This document shows positions 1,877 to 8,253 of a DNA stretch of 8,762 nt, one piece after another (the first letter of the stretch is position 1; the number at the start of each line of letters is the position of its first letter). Source of the stretch: Syntrophomonadaceae bacterium (GTDB lineage: Bacteria; Bacillota; Syntrophomonadia; Syntrophomonadales; Syntrophomonadaceae); NCBI GenBank assembly GCA_031265005.1, contig JAISDD010000022.1:1-8762 (forward strand). The letters are read 5' to 3'. The position numbers and the translations under genes were made by a program. Below the pieces are notes generated by a model. It saw nothing but the letters and a program-made list of their open reading frames with translations, was not told the origin of the DNA and searched no databases.

Positions 1877-1978
1877 ATTCGGAATAGGTAGGGAAAAAAG
1901 CCATATCGATACACAGATCGTATATACTAAGTAAAATGTGTCTTTTCGGCCTATAACCAGCAAATACAGGAGAATATC

Positions 1979-3658
1979 ATGAAAAACCAACTTATATCAA
2001 ATTCTCTGGCGGCAATTATTTTTGAAGCGTACCATAGCCTGGATAAACAAAATAAAAACCAATTAATCATCAACGCTGGCTTGAGCAGCACCCTTTATTT
2101 AATCAATAAAGGCCGTATTTACGCGCTCCTCTGCTCAGATGGCGGCGTTTTTGAAGGTTTAGGGATAAAATGCGGTATGCGCACGGTTGACCAGGCGATT
2201 CATTCCGTAAATATCGACCCCTTAACGCTGGAGCCTAAGCTCAGTATTATTGGGGGCGGAGAAGGCCAAAAACCCGCAGGCGTTTGCGGCGCCGGCGCTG
2301 TAAGCGCGGTGGCTCAGATGGCTGAAGCCGGCATTATAGAGCCTGACGGTAATTTTTCTAAACAGGCCGTATCCCCCCGGATACGCGGCAGCGAAAGCGG
2401 AGACCTTGAATATGTGCTGTATTTCGGCCTTGACGCTTCTCATATAGATGTAACTATTTCCCAAAAAGATGTGCTATCCGTACAAAAAACCAAAAGCTCT
2501 ATTTATGCCGGCGCGAAATATTTAATGAATTATGCCGGAATTACTAAAATAGACACGATAATTTTAACCGGCGCTTTCAGCGAGTACCTTAACAAAAAAC
2601 ATGCGCTTGCTCTGGGCTTGTTTCCTGACTGTCATTTGGATAATGTGAAAACCGCCGCCGCGGACCATTTTAATATGGATGCCCAATCATTGAACGATGA
2701 ACCCCGTAATATGATCGAGTGGGCGGTTAAAAATATAGAAACAGTTGAACCAGCATATAACAAGGATTATTCCGTCATGCTCGCCCAGGCTGCGATTATA
2801 CCGCATGAGAAAGATTCTTTCAGCATCAACCATCCTTATTTATGGAATTGCTCTGCTGACAGCGGTGTGCCAGCCGTTTCCTCCGGGATGCGCGTTGACG
2901 CTAAAATATTGCCCGGCGGTGCTTTACGAAACAGTTCTTCTGCCGAATTTGCTCCTAAGCGTTACATAAGTTTGCCTTTGATTAAAAGAAGCGAAGCTGC
3001 TGCTGCCGGGCGCATAGCTGAACAAGATATAAATTCTTTTTTGAGAGGCGGATATATTTATGAATCTCTTGATGAAGTGAAAATCAACCGGTCTCTTTTG
3101 GAGCATCCGTTAATAAAGAAAACTTTACATTACATTGAAGAAAATGCTGATTTACCTATTATTTTAGAAATTTCCGGACCTTTTTCCGTTTTAGCGGCCC
3201 TTATAAATCCTGTGCGTTTATATGTTGATTCTTTACAAAACAAAGAAAAAATAATGTTTATATTAAACAATATAGCTGAATCTTTAGCGGAATATACGAT
3301 CGAAGCGCTGAAAAAAGGGCTGAAAATCATATCTTTCGCCAATGTTGAAGGAGTAAGCGAATTGGTAGGTCCAGCCTTTTATGCTGAGATAAGCGGAGCG
3401 GCTGATTATCTGTACTTGACCAAAATAGCTGATCATTTAGACCAAGGGCTAGTCCATATTTGCGGAAAATCTTCCTATTCTTTGCATAACGCTGGTTTGG
3501 TGACCGCTAAAACCTACAGGGTTTCCGCGGAAGTGGAATACATAGACTGCTTGTTTGCATACTCTCAGAAGAAAGCCTTTCGCTTTGTAGGACACGGCTG
3601 TTTGCATACTAAAAAAACAACCTTCCTTCCGCTGATCTATCAATTGCAATTGACATGA
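1979..3658 (+). CDS. Fusion protein: RACo-like C-terminal ASKHA module plus UroD/MtaA-like corrinoid methyltransferase domain
   Basis: This 559-residue protein appears to join two families of corrinoid (B12) methyl-transfer metabolism. Residues about 28-276 resemble the C-terminal ATPase-fold module of RACo, the reductive activator of corrinoid proteins. Seen are VFEGLGIKCGMR (57-68), KPAGVCGAGA (98-107), a GIIEPDG segment (118-124), ISQKDV (160-165), LTGAFSEYL (196-204) and a closing IIPH (273-276). Residues about 285-559 resemble a short UroD-like methyltransferase: LEISGPFSVLAALI (396-409), IISFANVEG (450-458), HICGKSS (493-499, a His-X-Cys zinc-type motif) and GHGC (538-541, a possible third zinc ligand, C541). 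RACo's 2Fe-2S, linker and middle domains are missing. The loop normally DIGTNGE reads NAGLSST (32-38), so ATP use is doubtful. The start has AGGAG six bases upstream and an in-frame stop at 1928-1930. No corrinoid protein or other methyltransferase gene is adjacent. Domain identity is from pattern recognition; the function is unknown. Confidence 0.75.
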   Translation: MKNQLISNSLAAIIFEAYHSLDKQNKNQLIINAGLSSTLYLINKGRIYALLCSDGGVFEGLGIKCGMRTVDQAIHSVNIDPLTLEPKLSIIGGGEGQKPAGVCGAGAVSAVAQMAEAGIIEPDGNFSKQAVSPRIRGSESGDLEYVLYFGLDASHIDVTISQKDVLSVQKTKSSIYAGAKYLMNYAGITKIDTIILTGAFSEYLNKKHALALGLFPDCHLDNVKTAAADHFNMDAQSLNDEPRNMIEWAVKNIETVEPAYNKDYSVMLAQAAIIPHEKDSFSINHPYLWNCSADSGVPAVSSGMRVDAKILPGGALRNSSSAEFAPKRYISLPLIKRSEAAAAGRIAEQDINSFLRGGYIYESLDEVKINRSLLEHPLIKKTLHYIEENADLPIILEISGPFSVLAALINPVRLYVDSLQNKEKIMFILNNIAESLAEYTIEALKKGLKIISFANVEGVSELVGPAFYAEISGAADYLYLTKIADHLDQGLVHICGKSSYSLHNAGLVTAKTYRVSAEVEYIDCLFAYSQKKAFRFVGHGCLHTKKTTFLPLIYQLQLT

Positions 3659-3663
3659 AAAAA

Positions 3664-4560
3664 TTATGGCCTTAACTGTTCGACGTCCACTGGATTCACA
3701 TGTACCATACAGTGCTTTATCAGGGGAAAGTTATTTTCCATTGCGTCATGAACTTGCTGGGCTATATTATGAGCTTCCAGTAGAGTAGCGCTCTGATCGG
3801 CGCTTATTTCTACGTCAACGTAAATTTTATCCCCAAAAATACGGGTTTTAATTTGATCCACAGCCATAACCGCCTCATGAGCTTTGATAATCTCGAGCAT
3901 TTCCTCTATGACTGCGTCACTGCAGGAGCGGTCCGTCATTTTCCCGATGGCGTCTTTAAATATACCAATGACGGCTTTCAATATAAATAAACAAATAATC
4001 ACACTGGCTAAAGGGTCGAGCAGGGGAAATCCCATTCTGGCCCCCAAAATGCCGGCGAAGCTTCCGACAGAAGAAAGAGCGTCTGAACGATGATGCCACG
4101 CGTCAGCCATGAGAGCGCTGGAATTACCTTTTTTGGCAGCTTTATATGTATACCAATACATACTTTCTTTTACGGCTATGGAAACTAATGCGGCTATCAA
4201 CGCTAAAGAACCTGGAATTACAAAATAGCCGCCATGATTATAAATGATTTTTTGTACTCCTGACCAGCCGATACCCAAACCTGTTACAAATAAGACCGCG
4301 GACAAAATAATTGCGGCGACGCACTCAAAGCGTTCATGTCCGTACGGATGTTCTTTATCCGATTTTTTATGAGCCAAATTCACGCCGACGATCACGATGA
4401 CCGTACTGAAAACATCCGCTAGCGAATGCAGGGCATCAGAGATCATGGCTGCCGAATGCGCAGTCACTCCGGCCACCAATTTAAAAAGCGACAGAACAGC
4501 ATTAACAATAATGGTGTTTCGCGCCGTCTTAATAGCTGCTTCCTTATTTGCCGCCGTCAT
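3664..4560 (-). CDS. Cation diffusion facilitator (CDF) family metal efflux transporter
   Basis: This is an inner-membrane antiporter family exporting divalent metals such as Zn, Fe, Co or Mn. From the chosen start it is 298 residues, normal for the family. It has six expected membrane segments: about 14-32, 36-60, 82-104, 113-132, 160-177 and 181-200. The transport site is visible as H45-x3-D49 in segment 2 (SDALHSLADV) and H156-x3-D160 at segment 5 (AWHHRSDALSS). The HD-HD set is commonly linked to zinc or cobalt, but the metal cannot be fixed from sequence. HPYGHER (71-77) is the conserved inter-helix loop. Residues about 205-298 form the cytoplasmic dimerisation domain, with HCMVH (283-287). 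An in-frame ATG at 4578 has no ribosome binding site, whereas the ATG at 4560 has AAAGGA eight bases upstream; I prefer 4560. It converges on the fusion gene with a 5-base gap and no clear terminator between them. Confidence 0.93.
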   Translation of the reverse strand: MTAANKEAAIKTARNTIIVNAVLSLFKLVAGVTAHSAAMISDALHSLADVFSTVIVIVGVNLAHKKSDKEHPYGHERFECVAAIILSAVLFVTGLGIGWSGVQKIIYNHGGYFVIPGSLALIAALVSIAVKESMYWYTYKAAKKGNSSALMADAWHHRSDALSSVGSFAGILGARMGFPLLDPLASVIICLFILKAVIGIFKDAIGKMTDRSCSDAVIEEMLEIIKAHEAVMAVDQIKTRIFGDKIYVDVEISADQSATLLEAHNIAQQVHDAMENNFPLIKHCMVHVNPVDVEQLRP

Positions 4561-4710: not shown

Positions 4711-5310
4711 ATGCTCAATTTAGACAAGCGCTATTTAGTTGTTGGCATTTTATTTATAGGTTTATCTTTTTTCATCGGACTAAAATACGCAGAACACCAA
4801 AATAACTTTAAAATTCAAGAAACCACAGATTTGGTTGCCATCAGCGGCGATACTGAAAACAATAGTACAGTTCAGGAATCTTTCAACACTATTCAAGTTT
4901 ATGTGACGGGAGAAGTTGTAAATCCTGGAGTGTATGTTTTAAATGAAGACGCGCGCGTTCACGAGGCGGTCGATATGGCTGGAGGGTTATCGTCTGAAGC
5001 CCAGGACAAAAATTTGAATATGGCCGCGAAGTTAAGAGACGGCGAAACTCTGTATGTACCTTCCATCAACGAGACCGGTCCGTCTGTTGCTCCTTCTGTT
5101 TCGGCCGCCGCTAACAGCCGGGTAAATATCAACACTGCCAGCGCGGCGGAATTAGAGCAAAAACTTGACGGCATTGGCCCCTCTCTGGCTCAGCGCATTG
5201 TGGAGTATCGCGACAATCAAGGTTTTTTCAAAAAAGTTGAAGACCTGAAAAAAGTATCTGGAATAGGTGATAAAAAATTCGAAGCCATTAAAGAACAGAT
5301 TGATGTGTGA
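4711..5310 (+). CDS. comEA: Competence protein ComEA, membrane-anchored DNA receptor
   Basis: ComEA binds incoming double-stranded DNA outside the cytoplasmic membrane and passes it to the ComEC channel. The protein is 199 residues, the usual size in Bacillota. It has an N-terminal membrane anchor (about 8-24) preceded by a short charged stretch. A linker follows, then an SLBB domain (about 61-117, with VTGEVVNPGVY at 65-75). The DNA-binding domain at about 138-197 opens with VNINTA and carries two helix-hairpin-helix turns, GIGPSLA (154-160) and GIGDKKF (184-190). The ATG at 4711 has an AAGGTGAT ribosome binding site. comEC begins 31 bases downstream, so the two are almost certainly co-transcribed. 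The comEB gene that lies between them in Bacillus is absent here. Confidence 0.95.
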   Translation: MLNLDKRYLVVGILFIGLSFFIGLKYAEHQNNFKIQETTDLVAISGDTENNSTVQESFNTIQVYVTGEVVNPGVYVLNEDARVHEAVDMAGGLSSEAQDKNLNMAAKLRDGETLYVPSINETGPSVAPSVSAAANSRVNINTASAAELEQKLDGIGPSLAQRIVEYRDNQGFFKKVEDLKKVSGIGDKKFEAIKEQIDV

Positions 5311-5341
5311 GTATTTTACCTGAGACAGGCGGAGATGATTA

Positions 5342-7666
5342 ATGAATAATTTTTGGTTTCGGGTTTTTCTTTTTCTGTCTTTATCTATAGTTTTGGCTCT
5401 TTACCGATGGTGGATTATAATTGCGGCATTGGCTGTACTTTTGTCTGTGGTAATAGTTTTTTATCCTGACAAACGCCGGGAAGCTGGTTTATTTCTTCTG
5501 TTCATTATTTTGGGAAGCGGCTATTTTCAGTTAAGGCACATCGAGAAACCGGACTTTGGGGAAGTATCAGAAAATAAAGTTTTGCAGGGAGAAATACTTA
5601 CTATTCCGCGTCATACCGAAGACAGAACCAGGTTTGTGCTGCGTTGTAACGATAAAGACCCGGCGCAGCGGAAAATTCAAATATTTTGTAATTTCGATGG
5701 TAATCTTCAGCAAGGAGAAACGATCCGTATCGAGGCCGATTATGAGCTGGCTGCCCGGCCTGGCAACCCTGGAGAATTCGATTATCCTACCTACCTTTCC
5801 TATCAAAATATTTTTTATGTCGCGTCGGTTGATGAATTAGAAAAAATAACTGTCATCGCTCCAGCCTCCGGCATTAAAAAATGGATGAACAGTTATCGCC
5901 AGATTATTGAAAAGGTTTTTAAAGAAGCCTTACCTTTAGACGAAGCTAACATCTTGTTAGGAATGCTGCTGGGCAACATTGACGGTATCGAAGCCTCCGA
6001 GTACTCTAATTACCAAAAATCCGGCATTGTACATATATTTTCCGTATCCGGGATGCATATAGCCTTTTTGCTTTTAATGATTACTTATATCTGTTCTTTA
6101 TTGAAACTCCGTAAGCGCAATCGCTTCTTGGTGGTTTTAATTATATTCTTACTATACGGTTGTCTTATTGGCTGGCCGGTGCCAGTGGTGCGCTCTGTTT
6201 TCATGGGATTGCTGCCTCTTTTAGCTCATTATTTGGGGCGGGATAATGATATGCTCAACAGTTTAGGGTTATCAGGAGTATTTATATTGCTGATAAATCC
6301 TCAAAGTCTCATGCAGATATCTTTTCAGCTTTCTTTTTTAGGGACCTGGGCTCTGGTCTACCTGTATCCTTTGTTAAAAAAATACCATATTTTCGGCTCA
6401 ACTAACAGTATAATCATTGATAAATATTTGAAAGACCTGCTTTTGATCCCTTTTTGCGCGCAATTATCCGTACTTCCGCTGATAGCTTATAATTTTAATA
6501 TTTTCAGTCCCATATCCATTATCAGTAATTTATTATTGAGCTACGTATCCGGAGCTATTGTGATTCTCGGCTTCATAGCGTTGATTTTTGCTCCTGTTTT
6601 CAGCGCCCTCAGTTCATTGATTTTATTCGCGGGCGGTTGGCTTATTGAAATCATGCGTACGGTTACCCGCATTTTACTGTATGTACCAGGTTCCTATTTT
6701 TGGGTGGCTACTCCTGGCGTTTTGCTGATCATATTATATTACGCGGGATTGCTGTTGGGTTGTAAATGCCTGGAAAACAAGTGCGCCTTTTTTTGGCGGC
6801 ATAACTGGAAGCTGAAAATCATGCTTCTTTTGTGGACAGTATTCTTTACCGGCATTTTCTGGCCTGCCTCCTGGGTGGACAAAGGTTTAGCTGAAGCGGT
6901 CTTTGTTGACGTGGGGCAAGGAGATTGTACCTTGTTAAAAAGCCCTCAGGGTAAATTTATATTGATTGACGGCGGCGGCAGCGAATATAGTACTGTCGGG
7001 CAAAGAAAATTACTGCCCTATCTGCGTCATCGAGGCATAAATGAATTATACATGATCATTAACACTCATCCGGATACCGACCATTTACGCGGCTTGGAAG
7101 AAATACTGCCGGAAATTAAAGTCCGTTACGCGGCTATCCCCGCTGTTCTCAGCCAAGATCCCGCTTACGCTAATTTTTTCCAACTGCTGAAAAAATCCTC
7201 GACCCAGTTAATACTATTAAAGTCTAAACAAAATCTTAACATTGAAGATAACTGGAATCTGGAAATTATTTACGCTGGTAAACAAGATGAAAATATTGGT
7301 GTTTCCAATGAAAATTCCGCCATCATTCGCTCTGCTTTCGGGCTTTTTTCGGTTATAATCACTGGAGACGCCGGCATAGAAACTTTAGCAACTGTAGCGG
7401 AGGATAAAAATTTAGCTGCCACTCTGATCGTAAAAATACCTCACCACGGCAGCCGTAATTCCTACTCAGAAGAATTTTACCAAAAGATAAAGCCTAAGTA
7501 TGCGGTAATCTCGGCGGGATTGAAAAATCGGTACGGACATCCTCACGCTGAAGTAATAACCGGGCTGAAGACGCAAAATATTAAAATTTACCGTACCGAT
7601 CAGCAAGGCGCCGTCCGCTTTCTTAGCAATGGAAAAAATTTGCGCATGGAAGTATTTGGGAAATAA
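5342..7666 (+). CDS. comEC: ComEC/Rec2 DNA-uptake channel with metallo-beta-lactamase-type domain
   Basis: This polytopic protein carries single-stranded DNA across the membrane during transformation. At 774 residues it is full length. Hydrophobic segments at the start (about 5-62) precede a soluble OB-like N-terminal region (about 65-175). The competence domain (about 200-480) has FSVSGMHIAFL (233-243), GWPVPVVRS (277-285) and ISFQLSFLG (326-334), all typical. The C-terminal metallo-beta-lactamase fold (about 517-774) retains VDVGQGD (522-528), IDGGG (542-546), the HPDTDH metal motif (576-581), TGDA (674-677), HHGS (701-704) and GHPH (732-735). The nuclease centre therefore looks intact. GGCGGAG precedes the ATG at 5342. 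No frameshift or truncation is seen. The holA gene that often follows comEC in Bacillota is not next to it here. Confidence 0.96.
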   Translation: MNNFWFRVFLFLSLSIVLALYRWWIIIAALAVLLSVVIVFYPDKRREAGLFLLFIILGSGYFQLRHIEKPDFGEVSENKVLQGEILTIPRHTEDRTRFVLRCNDKDPAQRKIQIFCNFDGNLQQGETIRIEADYELAARPGNPGEFDYPTYLSYQNIFYVASVDELEKITVIAPASGIKKWMNSYRQIIEKVFKEALPLDEANILLGMLLGNIDGIEASEYSNYQKSGIVHIFSVSGMHIAFLLLMITYICSLLKLRKRNRFLVVLIIFLLYGCLIGWPVPVVRSVFMGLLPLLAHYLGRDNDMLNSLGLSGVFILLINPQSLMQISFQLSFLGTWALVYLYPLLKKYHIFGSTNSIIIDKYLKDLLLIPFCAQLSVLPLIAYNFNIFSPISIISNLLLSYVSGAIVILGFIALIFAPVFSALSSLILFAGGWLIEIMRTVTRILLYVPGSYFWVATPGVLLIILYYAGLLLGCKCLENKCAFFWRHNWKLKIMLLLWTVFFTGIFWPASWVDKGLAEAVFVDVGQGDCTLLKSPQGKFILIDGGGSEYSTVGQRKLLPYLRHRGINELYMIINTHPDTDHLRGLEEILPEIKVRYAAIPAVLSQDPAYANFFQLLKKSSTQLILLKSKQNLNIEDNWNLEIIYAGKQDENIGVSNENSAIIRSAFGLFSVIITGDAGIETLATVAEDKNLAATLIVKIPHHGSRNSYSEEFYQKIKPKYAVISAGLKNRYGHPHAEVITGLKTQNIKIYRTDQQGAVRFLSNGKNLRMEVFGK

Positions 7667-7713
7667 TTATTATCCTGGCTGAAATTTCAACATATATGTC
7701 ATAAGTAAGTGAA

Positions 7714-7742
7714 TCGCCAACTCAAAGCAAATAATATATAAT
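7714..7742 (+). promoter_or_regulatory. Candidate promoter of lspA-rluD
   Basis: TCGCCA (7714-7719, 4 of 6 to the -35 consensus) and a perfect TATAAT (7737-7742) are spaced by 17 bases. Transcription would start near 7749, about 37 bases before the first possible lspA start. No convincing terminator for comEC is seen between 7667 and 7713, so read-through is also possible. Confidence 0.45.
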
Positions 7743-7785
7743 ACCTATTAATTATGTTTAAATTAAATTAGGAAAGCACTTTAGT

Positions 7786-8253
7786 ATGTGGAGGTTTGTT
7801 GTTTTGAAATTTTTTCTTGCTGCCGCGTCAATTATCGCCCTGGATCAAATCACCAAATGGCTGGTCGTTTTAAATTTCCATTGGGGGGAAAAGCTGACCA
7901 TTTTCAACCCCTGGCTTCACTTCACTTATGTAACCAATACCGGGGCCGCGTTTGGAGTACTTCCAGGACGAAATTGGGTCTTTGTGGTATTTTCGTTTAT
8001 TGTCGTTGCCGGTATAGTATTTTACAATTGGGTTTACAAACCTTCGTTTAGTATGGCGGTAACTACTGCTTTGATTGCCGGGGGCGCGGCTGGTAACCTC
8101 ATTGACCGCTTATTCAGATCAGAGGTGGTCGACTTTATTGACTTAGGCTGGTGGCCGGTTTTTAATATTGCTGATTCGGCCATATTTTGCGGCGCTGTCA
8201 GTTTACTTATCTTCACTTTTATTCAAAATAAAAATGAGGTGTCCAGTGAATAA
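7786..8253 (+). CDS. lspA: Lipoprotein signal peptidase (signal peptidase II)
   Basis: LspA is a four-helix inner-membrane aspartyl protease that removes the signal peptide of prolipoproteins after lipid attachment to the cysteine. From the ATG the protein is 155 residues, normal length. Visible motifs are LDQITKW (19-25), the conserved NTGAAFG (51-57), GGAAGNLIDR (99-108), VVDF with catalytic D116, and FNIADS with catalytic D130. Membrane segments lie at about 7-28, 62-81, 90-106 and 130-147. The start is ambiguous. The ATG at 7786 has AGGAAAG upstream, but a TTG at 7804 is preceded by GGAGG at ideal spacing and would give 149 residues, matching the N-terminal length of Bacillus LspA better. 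The end overlaps the next gene by 8 bases, indicating one operon. Confidence 0.96.
   Translation: MWRFVVLKFFLAAASIIALDQITKWLVVLNFHWGEKLTIFNPWLHFTYVTNTGAAFGVLPGRNWVFVVFSFIVVAGIVFYNWVYKPSFSMAVTTALIAGGAAGNLIDRLFRSEVVDFIDLGWWPVFNIADSAIFCGAVSLLIFTFIQNKNEVSSE
7788..7794 (+). promoter_or_regulatory. Internal ribosome binding site supporting a TTG start for lspA
   Basis: GTGGAGG contains a perfect GGAGG (7790-7794), 9 bases before an in-frame TTG (7804-7806). It overlaps the ATG codon at 7786-7788, so only one of the two starts is likely to dominate. Confidence 0.45.
8236..8241 (+). promoter_or_regulatory. Ribosome binding site deciding the GTG start of the rluD-family gene
   Basis: GAGGTG lies just upstream of the GTG at 8246, with 6 bases between GAGG and the start. 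The in-frame ATG at 8234 has only A-rich sequence before it. The site is inside the lspA coding region, consistent with translational coupling. Confidence 0.6.

Follow-up and report, generated by a model that had tools for sequence, protein, structure and literature searches.

A shortened RACo-UroD fusion protein in a Syntrophomonadaceae bacterium, with an eroded activase half and a UroD module conserved at key sites

What can a protein do that joins, in a single chain, part of a corrinoid reductive activase to a UroD domain? The question is raised by an 8,762-nucleotide stretch of DNA from a Syntrophomonadaceae bacterium (contig JAISDD010000022.1 of assembly GCA_031265005.1; "the window"), in which a sequence-only reading had seen one uninterrupted frame running from a RACo C-terminal module into a UroD-like methyltransferase domain. 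The frame is indeed open for 559 codons (coordinates of this and other features are given in Table 1), and Pfam bears out both assignments: RACo_C_ter matches with E 8e-52 (176.3 bits against a cut-off of 27), and URO-D matches residues 365-511 with E 1.2e-8 (34.8 bits against 23.9). The fold as well as the gathering score places the second half in the UroD superfamily (PF01208), and the structure prediction that the sequence-only reading had called for gives the joined chain a mean predicted local distance difference test score (pLDDT) of 89.0 and a predicted template modelling score (pTM) of 0.91. We propose that the gene is a shortened RACo-UroD fusion whose product is no corrinoid activase, and whose small UroD module (sUroD) likely docks on a corrinoid protein and aids its reactivation in trans; we hold this proposal with about as much belief as doubt. 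The domain facts are firm, and from them we infer the function.

A protein search with the window protein returned 31 proteins, its own entry (P0001) included; this search and a second one, described below, each scored the 7,996 candidates sharing most words with the query. Nineteen proteins (P0002-P0020; P0017 without a precomputed URO-D label) align with the window protein over both halves, so that the frame is no chance join confined to one strain. Sixteen of the 19, with lengths of 851-934 aa, contain RACo_linker, Fer2, Raco_middle and RACo_C_ter, with URO-D labelled in 15 of the 16. The window protein begins just after the middle domain, and the first ~350 residues of these full-length relatives are absent; measured against RACo and RamA, it has the C-terminal ASKHA subdomain and none of the ferredoxin (Fer2), linker and middle (first ASKHA half) domains. 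Queried against the window by tblastn, the N-terminal 370 or 115 residues of P0002 gave nothing significant (best E 1.3, 0.34), and the spacer upstream of the gene holds in-frame stops, indicating that the protein has lost Fer2, the linker and half of the ATPase, a loss that the contig end does not explain. A longer product made by read-through of an in-frame TAG is ruled out, since the gene ends in TGA and the frame ahead of it contains several stops.

Other members of the family are also short. P0010, a 550-aa metagenome protein, is cut at nearly the same place; P0007 (783 aa), from a sister genome of the same genus (G001, a draft 93% complete), has no Fer2 match; and P0018 (662 aa) starts at the middle domain and lies on a 3,509-base contig. 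The second protein search, with P0010 as query, returned 15 proteins and no further truncated fusion. A ferredoxin remnant upstream of P0007, seen by eye in one frame, is unproven, tblastn giving no significant match (best E 0.30, in the linker region).

The two halves of the window protein have not been conserved alike. We counted as conserved those columns that are identical in at least 15 of the 16 full-length fusions, leaving P0007, P0010 and P0018 out of the reference rows. By this count, the window protein keeps 71 of 128 conserved positions in its ASKHA half (residues 7-272) and 37 of 38 in its UroD half (residues 273-559; Fisher p 1.8e-7). The 16 full-length members, each left out in turn, keep 91-100% of the ASKHA and 85-100% of the UroD positions. 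The corresponding counts are 60/128 and 35/38 for P0010, 100/128 and 37/38 for P0007, and 121/128 and 35/38 for P0018, the last showing that a missing Fer2 in a database protein is by itself no sign of erosion. Mean identity in the ASKHA half is 0.437 for the window protein versus 0.628-0.717 among full-length members; in the UroD half it is 0.365 versus 0.341-0.470. On this alignment, conservation of the UroD half concerns its key sites and does not amount to slow evolution overall. The DIGTN motif, which we take to be the phosphate-binding motif of ASKHA proteins and which together with the GNAAG stretch presumably binds ATP, is replaced in the window protein and is kept in the RACo of known structure, in the RACo of the same genome and in the other RACo of the sister genome. 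The sequence-only reading had assumed a working reactivator module; with Fer2, linker and first ATPase half missing, DIGTN gone and 57 of the 128 ASKHA positions lost, we predict instead that the protein is no corrinoid activase. Since the UroD positions were kept while the activase half eroded, the small domain likely acts on B12 proteins in a role of its own.

The motifs of the UroD half resemble those of MtaA, the methylcobalamin:coenzyme M methyltransferase (4ay7), which accepts a methyl group from a methyl-corrinoid protein and shares with sUroD both the UroD fold and the H-x-C-G motif. The H-x-C part of a His-Cys-Cys zinc site is present in the window protein, and Cys541 is only a candidate for the third ligand. 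We considered Cys291 as a peculiarity of the small module, and this was ruled out, because profile comparison aligns it with a Cys common to full-size UroD relatives. MtaA is the longer protein: a stand-alone sUroD of 290 aa is ~50 residues shorter, and the structural alignment stops at MtaA residue 314. The window protein falls far below the NCBIfam equivalog cut-off for MtaA (34.9 of 400 bits) and also misses that for MtbA (22.2 of 600 bits).

The sequence-only reading had called the fusion an orphan and had proposed a survey for the same fusion, split versions and nearby corrinoid genes. One scan of genome contigs with UroD-tail patterns gave 65 loci, and a profile search of all open reading frames (ORFs) of at least 80 aa found 62 sUroD genes in 61 of them (none in L074, L075, L078 and L082). 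sUroD is wired in three forms: fused to RACo (9 genes), fused to ferredoxin alone (5) and stand-alone (48). All nine RACo::sUroD loci match pylB or pylC profiles, the typical order being mtmC-mtmB(TAG)-pylT-fusion-pylBCD-pylS. Locus L018, for example, has a pyl-type corrinoid protein upstream of the fusion and PylB, PylC, PylD and the PylS small and large subunits downstream (NCBIfam), together with the second half of a TAG-interrupted MtmB (Pfam). ARAGORN found tRNA-Pyl in 10 of the 14 loci given to it; the 989-aa ORF of L021 is an over-long call, with tRNA-Pyl inside its first part. L055 was left out of the pyl loci, having a PylB/PylC-profile match without mtmB, probably from another enzyme of those superfamilies. 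The full-length family thus adjoins mtmB/pyl genes and is no orphan.

The five Fer2::sUroD proteins (403-420 aa; L046:9491-10702, L059:9440-10702, L060:555-1775, L061:9497-10717, L062:9497-10717) come, by record title, from Selenomonas, Megamonas or Veillonellaceae; all five loci match mtmB or pyl profiles and have a separate RACo gene within 1.8 kb. Pfam covered four of them: Fer2 clears the cut-off in L046, L060 and L061, and L059 misses it narrowly (20.9 of 21 bits). Since L060 and L061 score identically, the five cases are not independent. Split versions also occur, with RACo and sUroD as adjacent genes: RACo lies within 2,001 bases of 41 of the 48 stand-alone genes, so that 55 of the 62 sUroD genes, the five Fer2::sUroD included, either share a chain with RACo or lie close to it. 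A midpoint-rooted tree groups the window protein in a single clade with the RACo::sUroD rows included (27 rows, support 100/99), and the protein, with RACo_C_ter followed by sUroD in one chain, belongs to the fusion family; L059, the sole Fer2::sUroD protein included, falls outside this clade, and the split sUroD of five pyl loci (L026, L029, L030, L031 and L040) group together as one clade within the stand-alone set. It therefore seems, from the tree, that the RACo fusion arose once and that pyl operons took up sUroD more than once.

Two further observations concern the stand-alone genes. A CobW-like GTPase gene occurs in 26 annotated loci, often between RACo and stand-alone sUroD; the one at L064:8943-9857 (PF02492) is the sole member of the 26 checked with Pfam. 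At L072 (Candidatus Formimonas warabiya, 9821-10744), an sUroD adjoins a full-size UroD, with a corrinoid protein nearby; the dichloromethane mec cluster of this organism contains UroD proteins of unclear role, according to the available part of PMC9768040.

The genome that holds the window (G000) is metagenome-assembled, 77% complete and in 276 contigs. Its contig C142 carries mtmB with one TAG, tRNA-Pyl, and then genes for PylB, PylC, PylD and the PylS small and large subunits, all over their NCBIfam cut-offs. A fusion gene is present in this operon slot of the sister genome and none in the same slot here: the alignment of the two genomes reaches base 231 of L020 and resumes at 3163, within the last codons of the fusion gene. 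The remaining scar encodes LDLPIIYKFTLR-stop, 8 of 12 residues being identical to the end of P0007. The simplest account of this alignment is that the fusion once occupied the slot and was then deleted. The window gene lacks the mtmB/pyl operon seat of its family and is a separate copy; at its place, the sister genome has other ORFs beside ilvE. P0001 and P0007 are 44-45% identical whereas the ilvE proteins of the same two genomes are 90% identical, suggesting that the window gene is an old paralogue or else evolves fast. As the sequence-only reading had noted, no corrinoid protein gene is nearby: TIGR02370 has four matches in this genome, none of them on the window contig (C109). One complete corrinoid-protein gene lies on C228, and a second is present in parts, at the starts of both C228 and C142. 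The RACo on C201 has 605 aa, with Fer2, middle and C-terminal domains and no linker match. At L096:3-1901 in the sister genome (C210), a four-domain RACo is cut off by the contig edge and has the IPH-linker found in fusions; to judge from that linker, it may be a second, intact fusion.

How might the shortened protein work? By analogy with MtaA, its closest solved relative, the UroD module would bind corrinoid proteins, and it may aid the reset of Co(II) to Co(I), because sUroD is encoded in one chain with RACo, in one chain with a lone ferredoxin domain, or close to RACo. In this genome, the clients would be the corrinoid proteins encoded by the mtm operon and the C228 cluster. A separate RACo would handle ATP and electrons, the dead ASKHA half may serve as a scaffold, and, without ferredoxin and a full ATPase, the protein could act only in trans. 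The coupling of reactivation to methyl handling suggested by the sequence-only reading may therefore hold for full-length relatives, and not within the window protein. More tentatively, we suggest that corrinoid reactivation has a third, so far unrecognised partner in sUroD, which as a miniature MtaA would grip the corrinoid protein while RACo or ferredoxin reduces it; in this genus sUroD would have outlived the activase half, so such a job would be separable.

Several points weigh against a reactivation role. The window UroD half evolves fast as a whole (tree branch 0.73 versus a median of 0.24), residues 298-319 have pLDDT <50, and its structural Z to MtaA is 13.6 versus 20.2 for a stand-alone sUroD. 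The sister genome has no second sUroD as a counterpart of the window gene. L060, L061 and perhaps L062 represent a single Fer2::sUroD protein or near-identical copies of one; for seven of the 62 sUroD genes the fetched stretch, in some cases short or cut off by a contig edge, shows no RACo, and the association of the other 55 stands without a control count for any UroD near RACo. The literature that we searched reports no activity or binding for any protein that we class as sUroD. The conserved zinc motif would fit a true methyltransferase equally well. The module may be a methyltransferase II passing methyl groups from a methyl-corrinoid to an acceptor, with the ASKHA remnant a mere scaffold; the shortness of the stand-alone module, the candidate status of Cys541 and the frequent presence of full-size UroD genes in the same clusters make us doubt this explanation.

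The main rival reads the gene as a relic in decay: a piece of the fusion gene that was duplicated or displaced and has lost its function. The deletion of the operon copy down to a 12-codon scar, the missing counterpart, the long branch and the eroded ASKHA half are all consistent with decay. Against it stand the open frame with a good ribosome-binding site, the 37 of 38 UroD positions kept, and the absence of any stop where ~3.4 would be expected without selection, counting one missense change for each of the 57 ASKHA positions lost (P ~0.03); on balance we consider a relic unlikely. An artefact of assembly, which an incomplete genome in many contigs might invite, is very improbable given a coherent start site and upstream spacer, a separate protein (P0010) with nearly the same truncation, and an ilvE gene that both genomes share and that has a phosphoglucomutase-like neighbour in each. 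We give equally little credence to a working two-function enzyme that couples corrinoid sensing or reactivation to methyl transfer within this chain: both domains are present, but Fer2 and the middle domain are not, and both DIGTN and most of the GNAAG stretch are lost.

RACo, UroD methyltransferases and pyl operons are already known; the fused and stripped forms are new variations on these. The window protein differs from the RACo, AcsV and RamA-type activases (PF14574; 3zyy, 4c1n) in its UroD tail as well as in what it lacks. The expectation of something undescribed is borne out insofar as we found no description of a RACo-UroD or ferredoxin-UroD fusion in the literature searched, of which coverage was partial; a RACo-UroD fusion is not described in the available parts of PMC10418091, PMC13222342, PMC9768040, PMC9888536, PMC5214803 and PMC5764234. 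What did not stand is the idea of a new orphan, since a full-length family exists. The mlp gene clusters (PMC10418091) bring together UroD methyltransferases, a corrinoid protein and a Ram/RACE protein, as do many stand-alone sUroD loci; the available main text contains none of "CobW", "fusion" and "truncat", and the likeness is one of cluster content, sUroD not being equated with Mlp1-3. In the available part of PMC5214803, the epsilon subunit ApcE of acetophenone carboxylase (9fou) accompanies ASKHA subunits in a carboxylase, not a corrinoid system, and any likeness of role is our inference. RamA-like DUF4445 proteins have been inferred to reactivate B12, and a DUF1638 protein of unclear role is tied to B12 reactivation in one bacterium, a loose parallel (both from the available part of PMC5764234).

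The seat between ilvE and a metal transporter was read correctly, the neighbours being a class IV aminotransferase and a cation-efflux protein. Pfam places ORFs with SLBB and helix-hairpin-helix (comEA-like), Competence/metallo-beta-lactamase (comEC-like) and signal peptidase II (lspA) domains at 4711-8253, an ordinary set. An Rfam scan of the window gave no family over its threshold, and no repeats were found in stretches 1600-2050 and 3600-3760. Promoter-like sites number 11 versus 5.4 +/- 2.3 in shuffles, a result not used for any reading.

Table 1. Features of the window and of the operon slot in the same genome
Feature	Position	Strand	Basis
ilvE-like class IV aminotransferase, neighbour; 90% identical in sister genome	618..1691	-	Pfam, genome comparison
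AGGAG, Shine-Dalgarno-like, 6 bases 5' of ATG	1968..1972	+	sequence
Truncated RACo::sUroD ORF, 559 aa	1979..3658	+	ORF list, Pfam, protein search, alignment
RACo_C_ter half, residues 28-280	2060..2818	+	Pfam
Place of DIGTN motif, here NAGLS, residues 32-36	2072..2086	+	alignment, conservation count
Place of VxGNAAGxGA stretch, mostly lost, residues 225-237	2651..2689	+	alignment, conservation count
sUroD module, residues 281-559	2819..3655	+	conservation count, predicted structure
Cys291, in 66/66 sUroD rows; aligned with Cys of full-size UroD relatives	2849..2851	+	alignment, profile comparison
HICG, residues 493-496, aligned with MtaA HICG; His in 62/66 rows, Cys in 66/66	3455..3466	+	alignment
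GHGC, residues 538-541; Gly538 and Cys541 in 66/66 rows	3590..3601	+	alignment
Cation-efflux protein, neighbour; no match in sister genome	3664..4578	-	Pfam, genome comparison
12-codon scar between tRNA-Pyl and pylB, C142 of same genome	L094:1748-1786		genome alignment

To our knowledge, how corrinoid methyltransferases are reset once oxidised is understood chiefly for activases acting alone, RACo and RamA among them. If our proposal is true, bacterial methylamine use would gain a missing component in a small UroD module that is repeatedly tied to the activase, including in pyrrolysine operons. Its activase half eroded and its UroD half kept, the window gene would then be a natural separation of functions, making the role of the module directly testable.
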